From Acidobacteriota bacterium (GTDB lineage Bacteria; Acidobacteriota; Holophagae; Acanthopleuribacterales; Acanthopleuribacteraceae), in contig JAGQSC010000009.1 in NCBI GenBank assembly GCA_020439745.1, positions 124,001 through 188,000 on the forward strand: a DNA stretch of 64,000 bases, written 5' to 3'. Within the stretch, counting starts at the first letter, position 1, and every line of letters begins with the position of its first letter. The position numbers and the translations under genes are program-made. Below the pieces are notes generated by a model. It made no database searches. It saw only the letters and a program-made list of their open reading frames with translations, and was not told where the DNA came from. This document shows, piece after piece, positions 13,077 through 22,322 of the stretch.

Positions 13077-13103
13077 GGTCTTAATTGCTTGTCGGAGTGT
13101 CGT

Positions 13104-13817
13104 GTGGGGCTGCGAGAAAAGGAAACGGATCGCGATATCTTGGGTGACCTGCCCATGTTCGCAGGACTTGAGCTGCAGGAGCGCGAGGCGTTATCGAGGT
13201 GTGCCAGCTTGGTGTTGGGGCAGACGGATGACCGCCTTTTCGAGGAAGGTGAACCCGCCAATGGCTTCTTTATTCTGCGTTCAGGTCGCGTGAAAATGAG
13301 GAAGATAAGCCCTAGCGGCCACGAAGTCGTACTGCATGTGGCGACTCCACCCAACATGATTGGTTGTCGCGCACTTACCTCCACCGGGACTTCGTATCCT
13401 GCCACAGCTGTTTGCATGGAACAGGTTGAGGCATTGCGTTTTACACGCGACAAATTCCTTCAAGCAGTTTCCGATTCACCGGACGTGTTTTTTGGATTAC
13501 TGATCGACCTCAACCGACGTTTAAAAGAAATCTACACCCTGCAATCGGCACTTATGGAGCCTGTGGAACAACGTATAGCCACACTTTTGTTGCATCAAGC
13601 GCTCCCAAAGGACCGCGAGCTTTCCGATTGGCGCAAATACCCGCTTCAGGAAGTCAAACTAACGAAAAGCGTCATTGGCTCGATCGTAGGTACTTCCACC
13701 GAAACCGCTATTCGGATTTTGAGTAGGTGGAAGAAGAAGGGTCTGATTGGGTCGGAACGCGGCAGTACTCGAGTGCTCAATCCCGAAGCTATTTACGAGA
13801 TCGCTCAAGGCTCCTGA
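13104..13817 (+). CDS. Crp/Fnr family transcriptional regulator
   Basis: GTG 13104 is preferred because CGGAG lies seven bases upstream; a TTG at 13089 is also in frame. The 237-residue product has an N-terminal cyclic-nucleotide-binding fold (LFEEGEPANGFFILRSGRVKM about 49-70) and a C-terminal winged helix (KLTKSVIGSIVGTSTETAIR, about 190-215). The cluster of N-terminal cysteines of oxygen-sensing FNR is absent, so an iron-sulfur oxygen sensor is unlikely; a NO/heme-type (DNR/NnrR-like) or ligand-binding member is more plausible. A perfect palindrome of Crp/Fnr size (13855-13872) lies just after the gene and before the RIC-like gene, which is the obvious target. Confidence 0.9.
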   Translation: MGLREKETDRDILGDLPMFAGLELQEREALSRCASLVLGQTDDRLFEEGEPANGFFILRSGRVKMRKISPSGHEVVLHVATPPNMIGCRALTSTGTSYPATAVCMEQVEALRFTRDKFLQAVSDSPDVFFGLLIDLNRRLKEIYTLQSALMEPVEQRIATLLLHQALPKDRELSDWRKYPLQEVKLTKSVIGSIVGTSTETAIRILSRWKKKGLIGSERGSTRVLNPEAIYEIAQGS

Positions 13818-13854
13818 GTCAAACGCCCCTATCTTGAGGTAAACATTCAGCGGT

Positions 13855-13872
13855 GTATGACCCGAATCATAC
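13855..13872. promoter_or_regulatory. Perfect palindrome, probable Crp/Fnr-type operator
   Basis: The sequence is GTATGA, six bases, TCATAC: a perfect 6-bp inverted repeat with 18 bp in total. Size and symmetry fit a dimeric Crp/Fnr regulator, and a gene for one ends 37 bases earlier. The centre lies about 63 bases before the start codon of the RIC-like gene, which would suit activation. Direct binding is inferred. Confidence 0.55.
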
Positions 13873-13926
13873 CCGGGCACCTGTTCTGCCTTCTAGGCTG
13901 GGTGTATTCGATTGAGGAGGTGACCT

Positions 13927-14637
13927 TTGACATCCCCCAACCAGGTAACTGAACAGACAATCAAAGAGATTGTTTGGCGGCACCCCAGTGCCATCTCACT
14001 TTTTGAAGAGCTGGGACTTGACTATGCATCCGTGCCGCAAAGACTCTTTCGCGATGCGTGTGCACTTCGCGGTTTGCAGCCTGCGGACGTGCTTGATTCA
14101 TTGAAAAAGTTACCGCAGGCTGATCCGCCAGCCCCATTTTTGGAAGGCATCGAAGAAGACCAGGTAGGTGACCTCATTCATCACATATTCACGCATTACC
14201 ACGAGCCACACCGCAAACTGTTTCGAACCCTGGAACACGCGCTGGACGCTTTTGTGCCTCCTCCGTCACAGGAAGACACTTGGCACCAACTACGCCTATC
14301 AGCGCTCGGCCTTATCGAGGAACTTCAGATCCACATGATGAAAGAAGAACACGTGCTCTTTCCGGCCATGCTCGCCAAAGTCGGGGGCAGTACGCACCAG
14401 TCAGGTTGCCCGGCTTCCATGAATCCCGAAGCGCCGATGCGGGTCATGGAAATGGATCATGCCCACGCCGGCCAAGTATTGTCGAATATTAGGTCCGCTA
14501 ATGAGCGTATGGCTGGCTGTTCCAAGTCCTTTCAGCAGGTTCACAACCTGCTCTTAGAGCTTTGGCAGGAAGTCAATCGACATATGTATTTGGAAAACGA
14601 GGTGTTGTTCCCCGCATTCCGCACCTGGCTTCGATGA
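13927..14637 (+). CDS. RIC/YtfE/ScdA-like di-iron (hemerythrin-fold) protein
   Basis: The start is TTG 13927 with a strong AGGAGG six bases upstream. The 236-residue protein has an N-terminal DUF542-like part (IKEIVWRHPSAISLFEELGL) and a C-terminal hemerythrin four-helix bundle with iron ligands in HHIFTHYHEPHR, MMKEEHVLFPAM, MEMDHAH and HMYLENEVLFPAF. RIC proteins repair iron-sulfur clusters damaged by NO or peroxide. The paired cysteines normally present in the DUF542 part are missing here (GLDYASVPQRLFRDAC), leaving one Cys. So the di-iron part is intact but the N-terminal chemistry is probably changed. The palindrome upstream and the adjacent Crp/Fnr gene suggest control by nitrosative or respiratory signals. 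Confidence 0.88.
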   Translation: MTSPNQVTEQTIKEIVWRHPSAISLFEELGLDYASVPQRLFRDACALRGLQPADVLDSLKKLPQADPPAPFLEGIEEDQVGDLIHHIFTHYHEPHRKLFRTLEHALDAFVPPPSQEDTWHQLRLSALGLIEELQIHMMKEEHVLFPAMLAKVGGSTHQSGCPASMNPEAPMRVMEMDHAHAGQVLSNIRSANERMAGCSKSFQQVHNLLLELWQEVNRHMYLENEVLFPAFRTWLR

Positions 14638-14641
14638 GACG

Positions 14642-15901
14642 TTACAGTTGTAACACCCATTCGCTGCTTATGCCCGAACCGAACTCACCATCCAACCGGT
14701 TGAGATATGCATCGAACCGGATTACATTCCGGTGCCCCAAACTGGTTTGGTAGCGGCCCACTAGGGCAATCTGTTCCCTGGAGATCCCTTCCGTTTTTGC
14801 AGAGGCAAATCGTCCAGCAGCTTCAAGAACCAATTGGCTTTTGCCATGGGAGAAAAACCACTGCCGGCCACAGGCCGCGCCAAATGAATCTTCGCCACCA
14901 CCCGAAATCGCCGAAGGCGCGCGCCCCAAACCCTTCCCGGCGAAGGCAATACCCACAGGAGCCAAGATGCCCGGGGCACCGGGCGACCTCCCTGCTGAGA
15001 CGACGCCTCGCCAAATCTTGTACCCATTGATGTATATATGATCATGGGAACCCACTGGGGCTCGGGACCAACTGGCGAAGGCTAAAAACCCTTCACTTGA
15101 GGCTTCGTTATTTTCTCCCATCAATCTGAAGGTTGTGTTGTTGGCGCCGATGCGTTGTGTGGCCGAAACGCCACCCACCCATCGGCTCGAATCGTCTACA
15201 TCGGTATGCACCAGATCAACATCCCAACTGGAGGTACGTGTATCCATGGACGAGAACAAACCCCACAGTTTGCCGTCGTCCTGAGATCCTCGGTTTACGC
15301 CATCCCATGCCCAAACGGCGGTAATTCTTAGATTGGAAAGGCGCTTTGGCAACACGTTGTTTCGAACCAAACCCACTGCATCCACATTGTCATTGATCAA
15401 CATGCCATCCTGAAACGACAATGGCATGCGGCCGATGGCAGTACCCAGGTCCAAGGCACGTCGATCTGATTGGTTTAGGGCCGGAAACACCTCTCCCAAA
15501 TCTGCTTCGAAAAATGCTGAGGTGACTTCCGCATTTGCTTCGCTCCTACCACCGGTTTCACCGTCCGGATCCGAAAAAACATAGCGTGTGAACTGGCCCC
15601 CCTCGTCCAGGTTCCGCATGGAGAAAACAAAACGCTCCGTGCCACTCAATTGAAGGTTACCAACTAGATCCAATCGGGTCGACAGCGCCGAAACATCACC
15701 GTTGTTTGCAGAAAACCACGAAAAATCAGTGCGCAATGCGCCAAATAGGATGAATTGCGGCTGCCAAACTGCACCTGTTGGCAAAACCCACTGTTTGGGG
15801 GTGGGGCCTTGCCCGAGAAATTTTCCACCCCACTCAATGGGCGGGCGAGGTCGTTGAACGTCTTCTCCACCGAAAAATGCCAGCCATAGGAACCAAATCA
15901 T
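14642..15901 (-). CDS. Outer-membrane porin paired with a pentaheme cytochrome
   Basis: The 419-residue product has a very short signal peptide (MIWFLWLAFFGG) and a long series of alternating amphipathic strands with turns rich in Asp, Gly and Asn, as in an outer-membrane beta-barrel. No catalytic motif is visible. The ATG overlaps the stop of the upstream cytochrome gene (ATGA), so the two are made together. A barrel coupled to a multiheme cytochrome suggests a porin-cytochrome conduit moving electrons across the outer membrane, or a barrel that anchors the cytochrome. The size is smaller than MtrB-type barrels. Family assignment is uncertain; the barrel call is fairly safe. Confidence 0.7.
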   Translation of the reverse strand: MIWFLWLAFFGGEDVQRPRPPIEWGGKFLGQGPTPKQWVLPTGAVWQPQFILFGALRTDFSWFSANNGDVSALSTRLDLVGNLQLSGTERFVFSMRNLDEGGQFTRYVFSDPDGETGGRSEANAEVTSAFFEADLGEVFPALNQSDRRALDLGTAIGRMPLSFQDGMLINDNVDAVGLVRNNVLPKRLSNLRITAVWAWDGVNRGSQDDGKLWGLFSSMDTRTSSWDVDLVHTDVDDSSRWVGGVSATQRIGANNTTFRLMGENNEASSEGFLAFASWSRAPVGSHDHIYINGYKIWRGVVSAGRSPGAPGILAPVGIAFAGKGLGRAPSAISGGGEDSFGAACGRQWFFSHGKSQLVLEAAGRFASAKTEGISREQIALVGRYQTSLGHRNVIRFDAYLNRLDGEFGSGISSEWVLQL

Positions 15902-17607
15902 GGGACGACCACCGATTCATGTACCTGCCAAAGCAGGCTGTGACCTTTCACGACACGACGGGCCAATTCATGGGCGCTAAGACCATAATCAAATCCGGCA
16001 TCCTCAATTTCGTAAACAAGGTTCACAGGTACCATGCCCGAAATCAGTGACACAGAAATGTCATACCTCCCCGGGTTCAATGGTCCTTTTAAGTGAAACT
16101 CGGCTTTTCGTTGACCCAATGGCTCGATATTCATCTTATGTTTACGAGCGCCACTTGGCCGTCCTGTGAGGATATTAGGTGTGGCGGCGGGTCTCACAAA
16201 GGGTAAGGGCGATAAGGATTGATTTACAGCTAAGACCTGCTCGCGTTCACCTCCTCGCACCATCTGTGTCAGAAACTTAGACTGCAAACTGAACAGATCA
16301 CGGTCCAATGGGACATGCCCATCGATGACTTCCTTGGAATGTAAATCACGAAGATCACCGCGTGAATCCAGGTCGCCGGACACGTACACTTGACGCCCAT
16401 CTTGGTTGGAGATCTCAACCCGCAAGAACACCAAACGCTCCGCATCAAATCCAGTGGGTACGCCATGTCCATCGGTTCCGTTCGTCACGTTCACATGGAT
16501 CTGGATACCATGAAGTCTCGAGGCGTCCGCCACCTTTAGTGGTCCAAGTTGATATCCGCGTTTGAGTATCTCCAGCCGTTGGCGTTGTGCCTCCTCAAGC
16601 AAAGCCAGATTCTGGTCAATCAAAACTCGGGCATCGTAGCGATCATCAATGGACTTCCAGCGTTCGGGGAAAATACCCTCATCATGGTCTTCATCCTCAA
16701 AATCGTCCGTACCCCAACCAGCCTCCCAATCGAATTGCAGCCACTCTTCAATCTTGGCAAACGATTCAGCGCGATCATTGTGCGGAAATATGGCCGGATG
16801 AACCACCGAGTAATCAGGACCCATGAACATGTGATTGGTACGTTTTCGTGGCTGCGTTTCCACTCCATTGACGTTCGCTGCAGGTGCCTTGGGAAACGGA
16901 CCTGCCACACCCGGATTTGGACCCATGTGACAATCCACACACGTCTCACCTCTTCTTGCGGCGGGAGAGGTTTTGAACTCGCTGAAAGCTTCTTCAAGGC
17001 GAAAGCCATTGACGAAATTCACATCGTGACACATACCGCAAAATCCTGGATCCGACATGGTTTCCAGCTGAATCACGCGTTGATGTACTAAACGACCCGG
17101 TTCTCCGGGTTCCGATGTCATGCGGTAATCGCCACTTTGGAGTGCACGCTGCAGTTCCTTGTCACCCGTGGGGCCCACAATCGGTTCCTCAAGGGGTCCC
17201 TCCTGGATTCGCTGTCGACCACTCACCTTACCGTAGCTTTCAGTGACACGATGACATACGATGCAGGTCACAGCTTCCCGGGCCACTGGCGCTCGATCCT
17301 TGATACTGGCTGTGGGCGATTCACCCATTTGCATGCCGACAGGCGTATGACAGCGGATACAAAAATCGGCATTGCTGCCACTGGTTAAGGCGTTGATTTT
17401 CTTGTGCATCGCATTGAAAACAGGGCTCACTACGGCATAAGCGTGGGGCGATACGGACCATTCTTTGTAGTGGTCCGGATGGCAGTTACCACAATCCGAA
17501 GCCCGTGGGTACGCTTTTTCATCAAACAAATTGGTATGGGCTTGGTTCCCTGCCTCACCAAACAAAAACACGACGCACAACAATCCAACCATGAGCGCAA
17601 ATCTCAC
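15898..17607 (-). CDS. Exported pentaheme c-type cytochrome
   Basis: The 569-residue product has a signal peptide (MRFALMVGLLCVVFLFGEAG; GTG start 17607, ATG 17592 possible) and five CxxCH heme-attachment sites: Cys39-His43 (CGNCH), Cys83-His87 (CIRCH), Cys115-His119 (CIVCH), Cys190-His194 (CGMCH) and Cys223-His227 (CVDCH). The N-terminal 230 residues resemble cytochrome c554-type proteins; the remaining 340 residues form a heme-free C-terminal region with a beta-rich segment, usable for binding a partner or substrate. It overlaps the porin gene. The 321 bases upstream contain two inverted repeats. Candidate roles are extracellular electron transfer or reduction of a nitrogen or sulfur compound; the sequence does not decide. 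Confidence 0.9.
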   Translation of the reverse strand: MRFALMVGLLCVVFLFGEAGNQAHTNLFDEKAYPRASDCGNCHPDHYKEWSVSPHAYAVVSPVFNAMHKKINALTSGSNADFCIRCHTPVGMQMGESPTASIKDRAPVAREAVTCIVCHRVTESYGKVSGRQRIQEGPLEEPIVGPTGDKELQRALQSGDYRMTSEPGEPGRLVHQRVIQLETMSDPGFCGMCHDVNFVNGFRLEEAFSEFKTSPAARRGETCVDCHMGPNPGVAGPFPKAPAANVNGVETQPRKRTNHMFMGPDYSVVHPAIFPHNDRAESFAKIEEWLQFDWEAGWGTDDFEDEDHDEGIFPERWKSIDDRYDARVLIDQNLALLEEAQRQRLEILKRGYQLGPLKVADASRLHGIQIHVNVTNGTDGHGVPTGFDAERLVFLRVEISNQDGRQVYVSGDLDSRGDLRDLHSKEVIDGHVPLDRDLFSLQSKFLTQMVRGGEREQVLAVNQSLSPLPFVRPAATPNILTGRPSGARKHKMNIEPLGQRKAEFHLKGPLNPGRYDISVSLISGMVPVNLVYEIEDAGFDYGLSAHELARRVVKGHSLLWQVHESVVVP

Positions 17608-17928: not shown

Positions 17929-19335
17929 TTAGGTTTCACCTTCTTCATGATTGACCAGCGGTATGCGGATGGTGAACCTAGTGCAGCCTTCTTTACTTTG
18001 GCAGGTGATTTCGCCTCCCATTGAGGTAATAGCCGCTTTGCAAAAACTCAAACCCAATCCGCTGCCCCGTGTGGATCTACTTTGCTCACCACGACGAAAC
18101 CGATCAAATAATTGGGTCGCCAGTTGGGGGTCCATGACAGGACCTTGATTGGAAATCGACCACACAGCATATGTGCCGTTTCCACAGAGACTTAACTCGA
18201 TTTGGCCACCTAAATCACTAAACTTGATCGCGTTATCCATGAGGTTGGCCACCACCCGTTGCCAAACCTTTGGGTCAAAACGTACCTTGAGCCCGCGCTC
18301 CAATTGGCTGGAGACATTTAGGTTTCTGGCCTCCAGTAGCGGTTCAAAGATCTCAGGTGCCCATTCAATGGCTTCGGCAGGATCACCGACGACCCAATTC
18401 CAGTTGGGAATCCCACTCTCTGCGGCTGAGATCTCTAACAGCGTTTCGACCAGTTGCAAGATATGGTCGCACTCACCTATTACCCGACCTGCCCATTCCG
18501 AATTCTGTTCGGATAAGGCTTGTTCCGCAATCGCCCGTAATCGCGTCACCGGCGAACGAACATCGTGGGCAATATCATCCATCGTGTTCTTTTGAAAATC
18601 CACGAGCTCTCGTATGCGGTTCAACATGCCATTCATAGCCACTGCCACACGATCCGTCTCCGCAGTTCCAGTCGGTAGCTGAATCCTGCTTTTCAGATTC
18701 ATGTTCACACTGATGAGGTCCGCAGTCTCGCCCAGCATTTTCACACCCTTCAAGGCACGTCTGCTCAACAGCCATCCAATCCCCGTTCCGACGACAGCTA
18801 CCAAGACGAAAATGAACGCGCCCCAAAGCTGACCCTGCCTGCGCAGCAGGTTGCGTTCGTATTGATCCTCAACGATCAATACCGAAAACCCTTCGTCGCT
18901 GTGGTAACGCAGGGCGATCACACCCGCAGAATGTGCCGGATGAATTTGCTCCTCCCAGGTAAACAAACCATCACCCACTGCGAGCTGTTGTGGCTTAAGG
19001 TCCTGCCACGCCTCGGTCTCAGATTGAGTGACCCAATCCTCGTCAACGCGCACGCCCAACCAGAGCTGGTTCGTACCACGTGTTAACGCGTGCCGGTCCA
19101 AGATATCCTGCACGGCGTCCAAACGACCTTCAGCCACGGGTGTCTTAAGTTCCAGCCCGAGATCCAATGCATGGTTAGTCAGCTCGCGCTTGGACTCCCG
19201 GCTCAAGTAATGACGCAAAGCCACCGACCACCCAAAGATCGCGATCGTGGTCGCCAAAAGAAAACCCACAAGGCTTCCGCTGATCAGTTGGAAAGCCAAA
19301 CCGCGAGTAAGTCTAGCTCTCCTTGCGGACCACAT
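17929..19335 (-). CDS. Two-component sensor histidine kinase (OmpR-partner type)
   Basis: The 468-residue kinase has two membrane helices (about 15-38 and 172-192) around a periplasmic sensor of about 135 residues, a HAMP linker, a HisKA domain with the phospho-accepting His in DDIAHDVRSPVTRLR, and a HATPase domain with N box (NLMDNAIKFS) and G boxes (RGSGLGLSFCKAAI). The periplasmic part has no family I know. The start overlaps the response-regulator gene by 23 bases, so they form one operon and almost certainly a cognate pair. The cytochrome-porin genes lie downstream on the same strand and the spondin/porin/PstS-like group is divergent; either may be the target. Confidence 0.95.
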   Translation of the reverse strand: MWSARRARLTRGLAFQLISGSLVGFLLATTIAIFGWSVALRHYLSRESKRELTNHALDLGLELKTPVAEGRLDAVQDILDRHALTRGTNQLWLGVRVDEDWVTQSETEAWQDLKPQQLAVGDGLFTWEEQIHPAHSAGVIALRYHSDEGFSVLIVEDQYERNLLRRQGQLWGAFIFVLVAVVGTGIGWLLSRRALKGVKMLGETADLISVNMNLKSRIQLPTGTAETDRVAVAMNGMLNRIRELVDFQKNTMDDIAHDVRSPVTRLRAIAEQALSEQNSEWAGRVIGECDHILQLVETLLEISAAESGIPNWNWVVGDPAEAIEWAPEIFEPLLEARNLNVSSQLERGLKVRFDPKVWQRVVANLMDNAIKFSDLGGQIELSLCGNGTYAVWSISNQGPVMDPQLATQLFDRFRRGEQSRSTRGSGLGLSFCKAAITSMGGEITCQSKEGCTRFTIRIPLVNHEEGET

Positions 19336-19990
19336 ATCCTGCTCCGCGAACGGTTTGCAGCAGCTTGGGTTCGAAATCGCGATCTACTTTTTCTCGCAGA
19401 CGCGACATACGCGCTTCCACAATATTCGTGTTCGGATCAAAATTGTAATGCCATACGTGGTCGATAATCATGGTTTTCGAAACCACTCTTCCGGCATTGC
19501 GCATGAGGTATGCCAACAAATCGAATTCACGCGGTTGCAAGTCAATCACTTGGGAGCCGCGCCATACCTGGCGGGCAAGCATGTCCAGTTTCAGGTCTTC
19601 CACTTCAAGCGTGGTTGACTCAGCCGTTCCTTGTGATCGCCGAACCAAAGCAGTAACCCGTGCAAACAGTTCGGTAAACGCGAAAGGCTTAATCAGGTAG
19701 TCGTCAGCACCCGCATCCAATCCGCGGACGCGCTCCTCCACTCTCTGTTTCGCACTCAAAATCAGGATGGGAACCTGTACACGCTGGGCACGTAATCGTT
19801 TGATCAATGAAATGCCGTCAAGTTCAGGCAGCATAACGTCTACGATGGCGACATCAAACACATCCGTCAGGAACATCGTCAAAGCGTCCAGACCATTATC
19901 AGCTTCACTAACGGCGTACCCTGCCTCTCTGAAACCTTTAGCGATGAAGTGGGCAATCTCTTGATCATCTTCGACAACTAAAATCTTCAC
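19313..19990 (-). CDS. OmpR/PhoB-family response regulator
   Basis: The start is GTG 19990, preceded by GGAGG six bases upstream; longer in-frame starts up to 20245 lack such a site. The 225-residue product has a receiver domain with acidic pocket Glu7-Asp8-Asp9, phospho-acceptor Asp51 (VDVMLPELDG), Ser79 and Lys101 (LIKPF), and a C-terminal winged helix of the OmpR/PhoB type (EFDLLAYLMRNAGRVVSK; VRGAGYVVRK). The sequence resembles CusR/QseB-like regulators. It is followed by its kinase in an overlapping frame. About 166 bases separate it from the divergent spondin gene, and control of that gene is likely but not shown. Confidence 0.95.
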   Translation of the reverse strand: MKILVVEDDQEIAHFIAKGFREAGYAVSEADNGLDALTMFLTDVFDVAIVDVMLPELDGISLIKRLRAQRVQVPILILSAKQRVEERVRGLDAGADDYLIKPFAFTELFARVTALVRRSQGTAESTTLEVEDLKLDMLARQVWRGSQVIDLQPREFDLLAYLMRNAGRVVSKTMIIDHVWHYNFDPNTNIVEARMSRLREKVDRDFEPKLLQTVRGAGYVVRKES

Positions 19991-20156
19991 GACAACCTCC
20001 AAGCGCAGGTTACCGCATACGCATTCAACAAACCAAGCTCGAGTGCGTTCATGACGAATCGGTAATGCAGTGGTCAGCATGTGGTTAGATCCAGCAGCTA
20101 TTTTTTGAAGTGTCTCCCCGACCTGATCGGAAATGACCCACAAAAAGGAGTTTGTC

Positions 20157-20813
20157 ATGAAGAAGTTGTTAATCACCGCGGGTTTATGTGCCGCGAACAT
20201 CGTGTTTGCCCAAACCTGGGACGTCACCATCACCAATATCACCAAGTCTCAAATCTTTTCTCCGCCTATTGTCGTGGCCCATGACGGCCAATCCGCGCTG
20301 TTCCAACTTGGTCAGCCCGCATCCACTGGACTTTCAACCATGGCCGAAGACGGTGACCTGAGCGTTTTGATGACCGAACTGAACGGCAATGAAAAAGTAG
20401 GTGATGTAAATGCGGCTGGTGGCATGGTGATGCCCGGGCAGTCCGTAACCGTACAGATCAACACATCGGGCAACTTCAATCGAATCAGCGTTGCGGGCAT
20501 GTTGGTCTCCACCAACGATGCCTTCTTTGCCGTGAACAGCGCCGTGGCGCCAACCATGTTCCTTAAATCAGCGGGTATCAGTCAGCCCATTTCCATCATG
20601 GCGTTGGCTTATGACGCCGGTTCCGAAACCAATACCGAAGATTGTGCAAGTATTCCCGGTCCCCCTTGTGGAAATCCCGGTGTACGCGACACATCCAACG
20701 CAGAGGGGTTCGTGCACATCCATAGCGGCATTCATGGCGTGGGTGATGTGACGGAATCCACCTATACCTGGGACGGACCTGTGGCATTGGTAGAAATAAA
20801 ACGCGCTTTCTAA
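20157..20813 (+). CDS. Secreted spondin-domain protein
   Basis: ATG 20157 follows AAGGAG with six to seven bases spacing. The 218-residue product has a clear signal peptide (MKKLLITAGLCAANIVFA, cut before QTWDV). The mature protein fits one spondin N-terminal (Spond_N) domain: it opens with WDVTITNITKSQIFSPPIVV and contains APTMF and the central FNRISVAGMLVSTNDAFFAV strand region. In bacteria these are secreted proteins of unknown role, often beside two-component systems or porins, as here. A GC-rich hairpin follows the stop codon. It is transcribed away from the response regulator and towards the porin gene. Confidence 0.88.
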   Translation: MKKLLITAGLCAANIVFAQTWDVTITNITKSQIFSPPIVVAHDGQSALFQLGQPASTGLSTMAEDGDLSVLMTELNGNEKVGDVNAAGGMVMPGQSVTVQINTSGNFNRISVAGMLVSTNDAFFAVNSAVAPTMFLKSAGISQPISIMALAYDAGSETNTEDCASIPGPPCGNPGVRDTSNAEGFVHIHSGIHGVGDVTESTYTWDGPVALVEIKRAF

Positions 20814-20825
20814 GCCCTCCGTTAA

Positions 20826-20848
20826 GTGGGGCGGAAACTCCGCCCCAC
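20826..20848 (+). terminator. GC-rich hairpin after the spondin gene
   Basis: A perfect 10-bp stem (GTGGGGCGGA and its complement) closes a three-base loop 12 bases after the stop codon. No T-run follows, so it may be a weak terminator, an mRNA-stabilising hairpin or a dispersed repeat. A similar GGCGGGGC hairpin follows another secreted-protein gene at 53677. Confidence 0.5.
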
Positions 20849-20911
20849 ATCGCATCTAGCCGAAAACGATGTTAGAGTCAGGACGGGAATGATGTTCCCA
20901 CAGGAAGACTT

Positions 20912-21883
20912 ATGCGATTGATTTGTTTGCTGTTGATTGGGACTTGGGGCTTAGGCCAAGACTTGCCGTCACAGCCTGGATTTCAAGTTCATGACAACCT
21001 GACCCTAGGTGGTTGGTTTGACCTTATCATCAGTGATTCCGAGGGCGGACCAAGTGATCAACGGATTCCCCATGCCTTTGTGTACCTTGATGCGGACTTC
21101 ACATCAGGGTTTCGCGCATTTTTGGAATACGCTTCCACGGACATTCAAGGCCAGCCTGAAGAGACGCAATTGCAACGAGCATATTTGGAATTCAAACATT
21201 CGACGCGTGCCAAATGGCGACTGGGGCAATTCAACACGCCATCCGGCCTCTGGAAAGAAAAACACTGGTACACCATGGTGGACAGTAACCGAAAACCCGC
21301 GATTGCTGATTTCAGGACCATTCCCATGGAAGCATTGGGGTTGGAGTTTTCGGGCACAAGGACCACTGCCGCCATCGAGTGGGACTACTCACTCTTTATC
21401 GCACGTTCTCAAGATAAAGAATTGAACAGCGACCTTGGCTACGGAGCGGACCTCAGTTTCAGCATTCGGGATCGTTTTCGCTTTGGCAGTTTCACGTACC
21501 AATTCATGAATTCGGACGAAAGTACCGACCCCCTGCCCGGCGAGCGCAGGGCCCTGTTACTGTACACGGAGTCTTGGCTGATAGATAAGCAGCTCATGTT
21601 CCGCGCCGAATATTTGCACATGGACCGGGACACCCTTGAACCCACTAATGGCGCTTACGCAAAAATCAAATGGCAAATCAACAAAAAGACCTTCCTGAAT
21701 TACCGCTTTGACGAATCTGACGATACCCGGACGGGCCAGCCGCAACTCTGGCAAGGCCAGGCGTTGACCGCTGGGTACTGGTTCAATCCGCGTGTACGCG
21801 CGCGGCTTGAGTTGGGGCAAACCCGTCACAAAGGTTCGAATTGGCGTTCTGAATGGTCTGCATGGGTCGGATTTATCCTCTAA
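20912..21883 (+). CDS. Outer-membrane porin (OprO/P-like barrel)
   Basis: The 323-residue product begins with a signal peptide (MRLICLLLIGTWGLG) and then a strand-rich barrel sequence with typical segments such as FRAFLEYASTDIQG, RAYLEFKHS, WRLGQFNTPSGLW and a last strand ending in WVGFIL. The GQFNTPSGLW segment is reminiscent of porins of the phosphate-selective O/P group. It is followed after 19 bases by a small PstS-like protein, a combination that suggests uptake of an anion such as phosphate or a related oxyanion. The substrate is not visible from the sequence. Confidence 0.8.
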   Translation: MRLICLLLIGTWGLGQDLPSQPGFQVHDNLTLGGWFDLIISDSEGGPSDQRIPHAFVYLDADFTSGFRAFLEYASTDIQGQPEETQLQRAYLEFKHSTRAKWRLGQFNTPSGLWKEKHWYTMVDSNRKPAIADFRTIPMEALGLEFSGTRTTAAIEWDYSLFIARSQDKELNSDLGYGADLSFSIRDRFRFGSFTYQFMNSDESTDPLPGERRALLLYTESWLIDKQLMFRAEYLHMDRDTLEPTNGAYAKIKWQINKKTFLNYRFDESDDTRTGQPQLWQGQALTAGYWFNPRVRARLELGQTRHKGSNWRSEWSAWVGFIL

Positions 21884-21902
21884 ACATTACGAGACCTCAT
21901 AC

Positions 21903-22322
21903 ATGCTGATGTTTGCCTGCCTGTTGTGGCTGGGTCAATCAGACGCAGATCTCATCTTAGTGGCCCACCCAAGAGTTGAGTTCAGATCGATCACTGTGCG
22001 TGAACTTCAATTGATCTACCTAAAGCGCATGGACCGCCTGCAAAAACAACGCGTGGTGCCCTTACAGTATCGCCATGACCATCCAATGCAAAAGCTCTTT
22101 GAACGCTTGGTTATGGATCCACACTTCGATTTAGACAACTACTGGTACGAGCAACAGGTACAAGCGGGCGAGCGTCCGCCCCAAGCGGTCCCTGATGAGG
22201 CACACCTGCTTGTGTACGTATCACGAAACCCTGGCCATATTGGCTTTGTCTCAGCCAAACTGTTAGAGGACGCCAGGGGTCTGGGATTGGTCATTATTCC
22301 GTTCCCCAAACCCCCTGGTTAG
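21903..22322 (+). CDS. Small PstS-like periplasmic binding protein
   Basis: Starting at ATG 21903 gives 139 residues with a signal peptide (MLMFACLLWLGQSDA). The mature part (LILVAHPRVEFRSITVRELQLIYL ... HPMQKLFERLV ... ISY-type helix pattern, YVSRNPGHIGFV) resembles the short, single-lobe phosphate-ABC-transporter substrate-binding-like proteins found beside porins. It is about half the length of true PstS, so transport by an ABC system is not implied; no permease is nearby. It may bind an anion for the adjacent porin or for the sensor kinase. The gene ends five bases before the convergent protease gene. Confidence 0.7.
   Translation: MLMFACLLWLGQSDADLILVAHPRVEFRSITVRELQLIYLKRMDRLQKQRVVPLQYRHDHPMQKLFERLVMDPHFDLDNYWYEQQVQAGERPPQAVPDEAHLLVYVSRNPGHIGFVSAKLLEDARGLGLVIIPFPKPPG

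Follow-up and report, generated by a model that had tools for sequence, protein, structure and literature searches.

To our knowledge, the only outer-membrane electron exits understood in detail are those of Shewanella and, in part, Geobacter. In the extHIJKL cluster of Geobacter sulfurreducens a porin of ~45 kDa, ExtI, is encoded together with ExtKL, a periplasmic pentaheme cytochrome carrying an Ig-like domain (PMC5877670, PMC6148476); the set includes no outer-surface cytochrome, and its extended cluster has decaheme, dodecaheme and b-type cytochromes (PMC5877670, PMC6148476, PMC11976967). With this cluster alone, Fe(III) oxide is reduced at about half, and Mn(IV) oxide at three quarters, of the wild-type level (PMC6148476); without ExtI, the reduction of selenite and tellurite is impaired (PMC5877670). 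ExtKL, the pentaheme cytochrome c552 of Thermochromatium tepidum (PDB 5ze8) and proteins of cable bacteria have been grouped as a single family of pentaheme proteins that bear an Ig-like domain (PMC11976967), and porin-multiheme clusters of freshwater Verrucomicrobia have been proposed as a novel porin-cytochrome system outside the Proteobacteria (PMC5615132). Here we compare with these systems a cytochrome-porin gene pair from a 64,000-nucleotide stretch of an Acidobacteriota genome (the window, to which coordinates refer unless another locus is named).

A pentaheme cytochrome with an Ig-like domain

The cytochrome gene (15898-17607, minus strand, GTG start) encodes 569 residues laid out as a Sec signal peptide, a pentaheme domain over residues ~30-235 and an Ig-like C-terminal domain over residues ~350-569. 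Its five heme sites, all on the minus strand, are CGNCH (residues 39-43; 17479-17493), CIRCH (residues 83-87; 17347-17361), CIVCH (residues 115-119; 17251-17265), CGMCH (residues 190-194; 17026-17040) and CVDCH (residues 223-227; 16927-16941). All five are invariant across 11 aligned cytochrome sequences and are thus not a product of chance, and the N-terminus reads as an ordinary Sec-type one, which bears out the exported five-heme protein noticed in the first-pass annotation. In the Ig-like domain, alignment reveals an HGVPTG motif (residues 381-386; 16450-16467, minus strand), whose invariant histidine has its counterparts in the HxxPTG of 5ze8 and the HSIPDG-Sec of MccSep, a multiheme cytochrome c selenoprotein.

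Pfam places Cytochrome_C554 and related heme domains on the N-terminal part of the protein, and the best NCBIfam match is the ExtKL model NF040886, at 41.1 bits (E 8.1e-11) against a curated cut-off of 250 bits; the same model returned nothing above cut-off from control genomes. The family profile, searched against the PDB, matches 5ze8 along the heme domain (E 2.5e-15) and, weakly, once more around GHxxPTG in the C-terminal domain. The structure model is poor (pLDDT 54.4), as is usual for heme proteins; 5ze8 nonetheless ranks first in a Foldseek search with it, and the two superimpose with a Z of 11.2 and an rmsd of 5.1 over 269 aligned residues from the span 28-566. The marks of the pentaheme c552/ExtKL-like (PHC) group, namely five CxxCH sites, an Ig-like domain with GHxxPxG and the 5ze8 fold, are all found. 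Given this architecture and the fold match to 5ze8, and in line with the sequence comparisons, we assign the modelled cytochrome to the c552 (5ze8)/ExtKL pentaheme family, as a member that is not ExtKL proper. A separate multiheme protein of the same genome (L027, G000:C27:231560-232384; a 584 aa frame) comes nearer to the ExtKL model than the window's cytochrome does in a six-frame search (E 6.3e-14).

Two more specific readings of the cytochrome were dropped. A selenoprotein of the ExtKL or MccSep type does not fit, as Phe387 occupies the selenocysteine place and the aligned family elsewhere has Phe or Ser there; the TGA flagged in the related cytochrome of the acidobacterial genome G287, the sole in-frame TGA reported, is its terminal stop codon. 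Histidine counts give no ground for an open catalytic heme, because invariant histidines outnumber the need of five hemes. Furthermore, neither Pfam nor NCBIfam names a reductase family for the protein above cut-off, their matches being to cytochromes at the domain level, and the models for NrfH, TorC, octaheme tetrathionate reductase and the like score far under their curated cut-offs.

The adjoining barrel and the constancy of the pair

On the minus strand, the cytochrome gene overlaps by an ATGA stop/start (15898-15901) with an ATG-initiated porin gene (14642-15901; 419 aa), modelled with ~18 strands over residues 45-418. The overlap had been noted from the sequence, and the barrel is now backed by an AlphaFold2 model (pLDDT 76.5, pTM 0.77, ~18 strands as counted from DSSP elements) and by fold matches that include, among those listed, OprD/Occ, MOMP and AlgE (Z 25-27, identity 6-12%). 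By sequence, neither Pfam nor NCBIfam gives the porin a family name, a profile search of the PDB finds no relative at E up to 1 and a single-sequence search gives chance-level matches only, so that the OprD/MOMP shape is a likeness of fold (Z ~27) with no Pfam or PDB sequence match beside it. MtrB is absent among the 50 matches listed in either barrel fold comparison, an absence that in itself excludes nothing.

The porin begins with MIWFLWLAFFGGED, an odd and very short signal peptide that lacks a basic residue, and no in-frame ATG, GTG or TTG is available upstream because a TGA lies directly before it. Conserved motifs are carried by a long loop at residues ~300-336 and by a segment preceding strand 1 (residues 18-48; 15758-15850, minus strand) with the consensus RPxPLIExGxPFLGTG...LPTGAVWQP; in the isolated model, residues 1-34 have pLDDT values below 50. 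This N-terminal segment is a possible partner-binding or docking stretch, a role we put forward as a suggestion only, since its conservation (3.03 bits) barely exceeds the protein mean (2.74 bits).

Searches of genomes and contigs place the porin gene directly after the cytochrome gene in all relatives found, which are spread over Acidobacteriota, Planctomycetota, Verrucomicrobiota and Alphaproteobacteria and by record title belong to Thermoanaerobaculia, 'Deltaproteobacteria', Verrucomicrobiales, Planctomycetota, Hyphomicrobium, Parvularculaceae and Kiloniellales, bearing in mind that assignments of metagenome-assembled genomes (MAGs) may be wrong. Overlaps of the ATGA/GTGA type recur in the planctomycete, Parvularculaceae and G074 pairs, and short gaps of up to 98 bases (Hyphomicrobium) separate the remaining ones. 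The Kiloniellales barrel gene, downstream of its cytochrome gene, is interrupted by what look like frameshifts and keeps a recognisable C-terminal end, and that of G216 is divided between the ends of two contigs. The search for the pair in other Acidobacteriota that the first-pass annotation had proposed finds both profiles in the same six of 297 genomes, drawn evenly over the phylum, and neither alone in any; the six carriers come from six different families. In the plasmid collection searched, the barrel has no match and the cytochrome only remote, partial ones. Across 14 pairs the cytochrome and porin distances covary (r 0.965), as shared ancestry alone could explain.

The constant adjacency, the co-occurrence in the same genomes, the frequent overlap and the linkage to further multiheme cytochromes strongly support, at the level of gene order and content, a functional pairing that is not accidental. 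Accordingly placed beside its cytochrome throughout, the barrel does not fit the outcome that would have spoken against the original idea, a named soluble reductase accompanied in most genomes by an unrelated barrel. In one acidobacterial genome, G287, the pair (L034 8405-10228) contains a cytochrome of an alphaproteobacterial subtype (GHNLPSGSLGAQ), and this subtype is suggestive of a transfer between phyla.

Companion genes and genomic setting

In most of the acidobacterial relatives, as read in six genomes (G003, G004, G198, G273, G074 and G216), the pair opens an operon encoding, in order, the five-heme cytochrome, the porin, an eight-heme protein, a cyclic-nucleotide-binding (cNMP)/4Fe-4S protein, a cytochrome b-like protein and a ten-heme protein; a small membrane protein listed for the G273 operon came from a wrongly read frame. 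The eight-heme companion is of the c554 type, and the cNMP protein combines cyclic-nucleotide binding with two 4Fe-4S motifs. The 'Deltaproteobacteria' MAG keeps the same order as far as its stretch extends, and in Kiloniellales four-heme, cyclic-nucleotide/4Fe-4S and ten-heme genes lie upstream of the pair and a 2Fe-2S/FAD/NAD reductase gene downstream. In the window's genome and its congener G001 no chain genes adjoin the pair: the set sits at a second locus (G000:C63, L046; G001:C20, L047) with genes for a reductase, a c554-type four-heme protein, a cNMP/4Fe-4S protein, a cytochrome b-like protein and a ten-heme protein, on a contig other than that of the pair in the window's genome. There, L046 6618-13377 reads as a 2Fe-2S/FAD/NAD reductase, a tetraheme protein, the cyclic-nucleotide/4Fe-4S protein, a membrane protein and a decaheme protein, the last with a Cys-rich stretch before its membrane segment that the G003 protein does not have. 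The cytochrome b call is a weak one (DUF4405 at 0.0031 for the copy in the window's genome, cytochrome b561 at 5e-4 for that of Hyphomicrobium).

Nine of the 297 genomes match the decaheme profile; five of these are pair carriers, and G287 is not one of the nine. The cyclic-nucleotide/4Fe-4S profile occurs in 24, including all six carriers, with the G287 match at the weaker level only and to a longer, different protein. The Verrucomicrobia, Planctomycetota, Hyphomicrobium and Parvularculaceae genomes give no strong cNMP/4Fe-4S match, and each has another multiheme gene adjoining the pair. Judged by gene content, then, the chain companions are not universal among pair carriers.

Upstream of the pair and in the same direction, the window encodes a sensor histidine kinase (17929-19335, minus strand) and, upstream of it, a response regulator (19313-20245, minus strand; its true start probably lies later), both named from sequence. 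The same two-component arrangement is found in the congener and was seen in none of the other relatives read. A divergent block (20133-22322, plus strand) encodes a Spondin_N-domain protein, a small second porin with a weak BBP2 match and a short protein whose resemblance to PstS-type (phosphate-binding) proteins was judged by eye; the congener, too, has this block next to its two-component system and pair (L035 3802-6099). Convergent to the pair, at 13089-14637 on the plus strand, lie genes for a Crp/Fnr-type regulator and a RIC-type iron-sulfur repair di-iron protein (TIGR03652, E 1.1e-30, under cut-off), possibly a nitrosative-stress unit. Nitric oxide, suggested as an acceptor by these neighbours, was dropped, as the two genes do not lie beside the pair in the congener.

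Proposed role and relation to described systems

We propose, as a reading with about an even chance of being right, that a reductive multiheme electron chain ends in this pair at the outer membrane, with the cytochrome docked at the periplasmic mouth of the porin. Electrons would enter from NAD(P)H or quinol, reach the decaheme protein by way of the 4Fe-4S protein and cytochrome b, and cross the periplasm on the tetra- or octaheme protein to the pentaheme cytochrome; the latter would dock on the barrel's periplasmic mouth, for which the conserved segment at the porin's N-terminus may serve, and would reduce an acceptor entering through the barrel or met at its mouth. A metal or metalloid oxyanion, a small oxidised compound or a shuttle could serve as acceptor, metals and metalloids being the first to consider because of the reduction phenotypes of Geobacter ExtI/ExtKL. 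The companions in Acidobacteriota look like an electron chain from the inside to the outer membrane, a little-studied cousin of the Geobacter metal-respiring conduits. More tentatively, and with somewhat less confidence than would make it an even call, the succession from NAD(P)H through the cyclic-nucleotide-binding 4Fe-4S protein, cytochrome b, decaheme and tetra/octaheme proteins to the pentaheme-porin pair may be a so far undescribed chain with its own kind of outer-membrane exit in several phyla, of which Acidobacteriota and Alphaproteobacteria have chain components and the others the pair. A literature search, beyond which lay most subscription journals, found nothing on the pair, the chain or a cyclic-nucleotide/4Fe-4S/decaheme/porin cluster.

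The first-pass annotation had offered an electron conduit across the outer membrane or a barrel-anchored reductase. The functional pairing behind that idea stands; the conduit itself, with the cytochrome held inside the barrel like MtrA in MtrB and reducing extracellular solids, is possible but in our estimate unlikely. It would agree with the obligate pairing, with the counting as conduits of small Pcc porins that have 18-22 predicted strands and partners of 5-14 hemes (PMC4245776), and with the 18 strands assigned to ExtB, of the ExtABCD conduit cluster (PMC6148476), yet it would have to accommodate a bulky Ig-like domain in an ordinary OprD-shaped barrel of 18 strands, whose lumen is by geometric estimate far narrower than that of MtrB, and no gene for an outer-surface multiheme partner is evident beside the pair. 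The small size of the modelled barrel makes docking at the mouth likelier than MtrAB-style threading of hemes through it.

Electrons might instead flow inwards, the porin admitting a reduced compound, or outside electrons being taken up, and the pentaheme cytochrome feeding the inner membrane. Multiheme chains and b-type cytochromes can work in either direction, and the sequences do not fix which; the NAD(P)H-type 2Fe-2S/FAD reductase among the cytoplasmic partners in the window's genome, however, fits a reductive chain better, and we regard inward flow as distinctly improbable. We give the least credence of all to the reading that a plain nutrient porin and a soluble cytochrome sit in one operon purely for regulatory reasons: the barrel does resemble general substrate-specific porins and the window's pair stands alone beside a two-component system, but in several phyla this cytochrome is followed by this one porin family, neither is found alone in 297 genomes, and the barrel family is single-copy in the window's genome. 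A compact pentaheme-porin pair that comes with a conserved supply chain, in groups seldom examined for such a trait, would add to the organisms that may reduce metals, metalloids or shuttles at the cell surface, and so small a two-protein system offers a means of settling whether the cytochrome sits in the barrel or at its mouth.

MtrB-type barrels have ~26-28 strands and ten-heme partners, and Pcc sets usually include an outer-surface cytochrome. The pair shares with OmbB-OmaB-OmcB (Pcc) and MtrAB a barrel gene adjoining that of a periplasmic multiheme cytochrome, the gene-cluster arrangement expected of a Pcc system; five hemes and a 419 aa barrel modelled at ~18 strands set it apart from the MtrAB type, and our searches found no sequence link to either. 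The barrel is indeed shorter than MtrB, as first noticed, but the separate class then suggested is weakened by small Pcc porins (PMC4245776) and by ExtI with its pentaheme partner (PMC6148476), which are already described. The freshwater Verrucomicrobia clusters differ in their eight-heme cytochromes and in porins of at least 20 predicted strands (PMC5615132). MccSep (PDB 9wt8) is reached by a remote heme-domain profile match and shares the HxxPxG motif, but its Sec325 aligns with Phe387 of the window protein, in a family that has neither Sec nor Cys at this position. The T. tepidum c552 has an identical two-domain architecture, at ~16% identity in the structural alignment, and is not known to us to have a porin partner. 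Of the described systems, ExtI/ExtKL of Geobacter comes nearest: it likewise joins a porin to a pentaheme cytochrome with an Ig-like domain and does without an outer-surface cytochrome, the window's barrel being likened to ExtI by description only. The window's cytochrome differs in scoring 41 bits against the cut-off of 250 and in lacking selenocysteine, and the locus differs in its order, cytochrome then porin, with no rhodanese or ExtJ seen adjoining the pair. Alongside that system, the pair described here is real, conserved and specific, and couples a known cytochrome family to an unnamed porin family.
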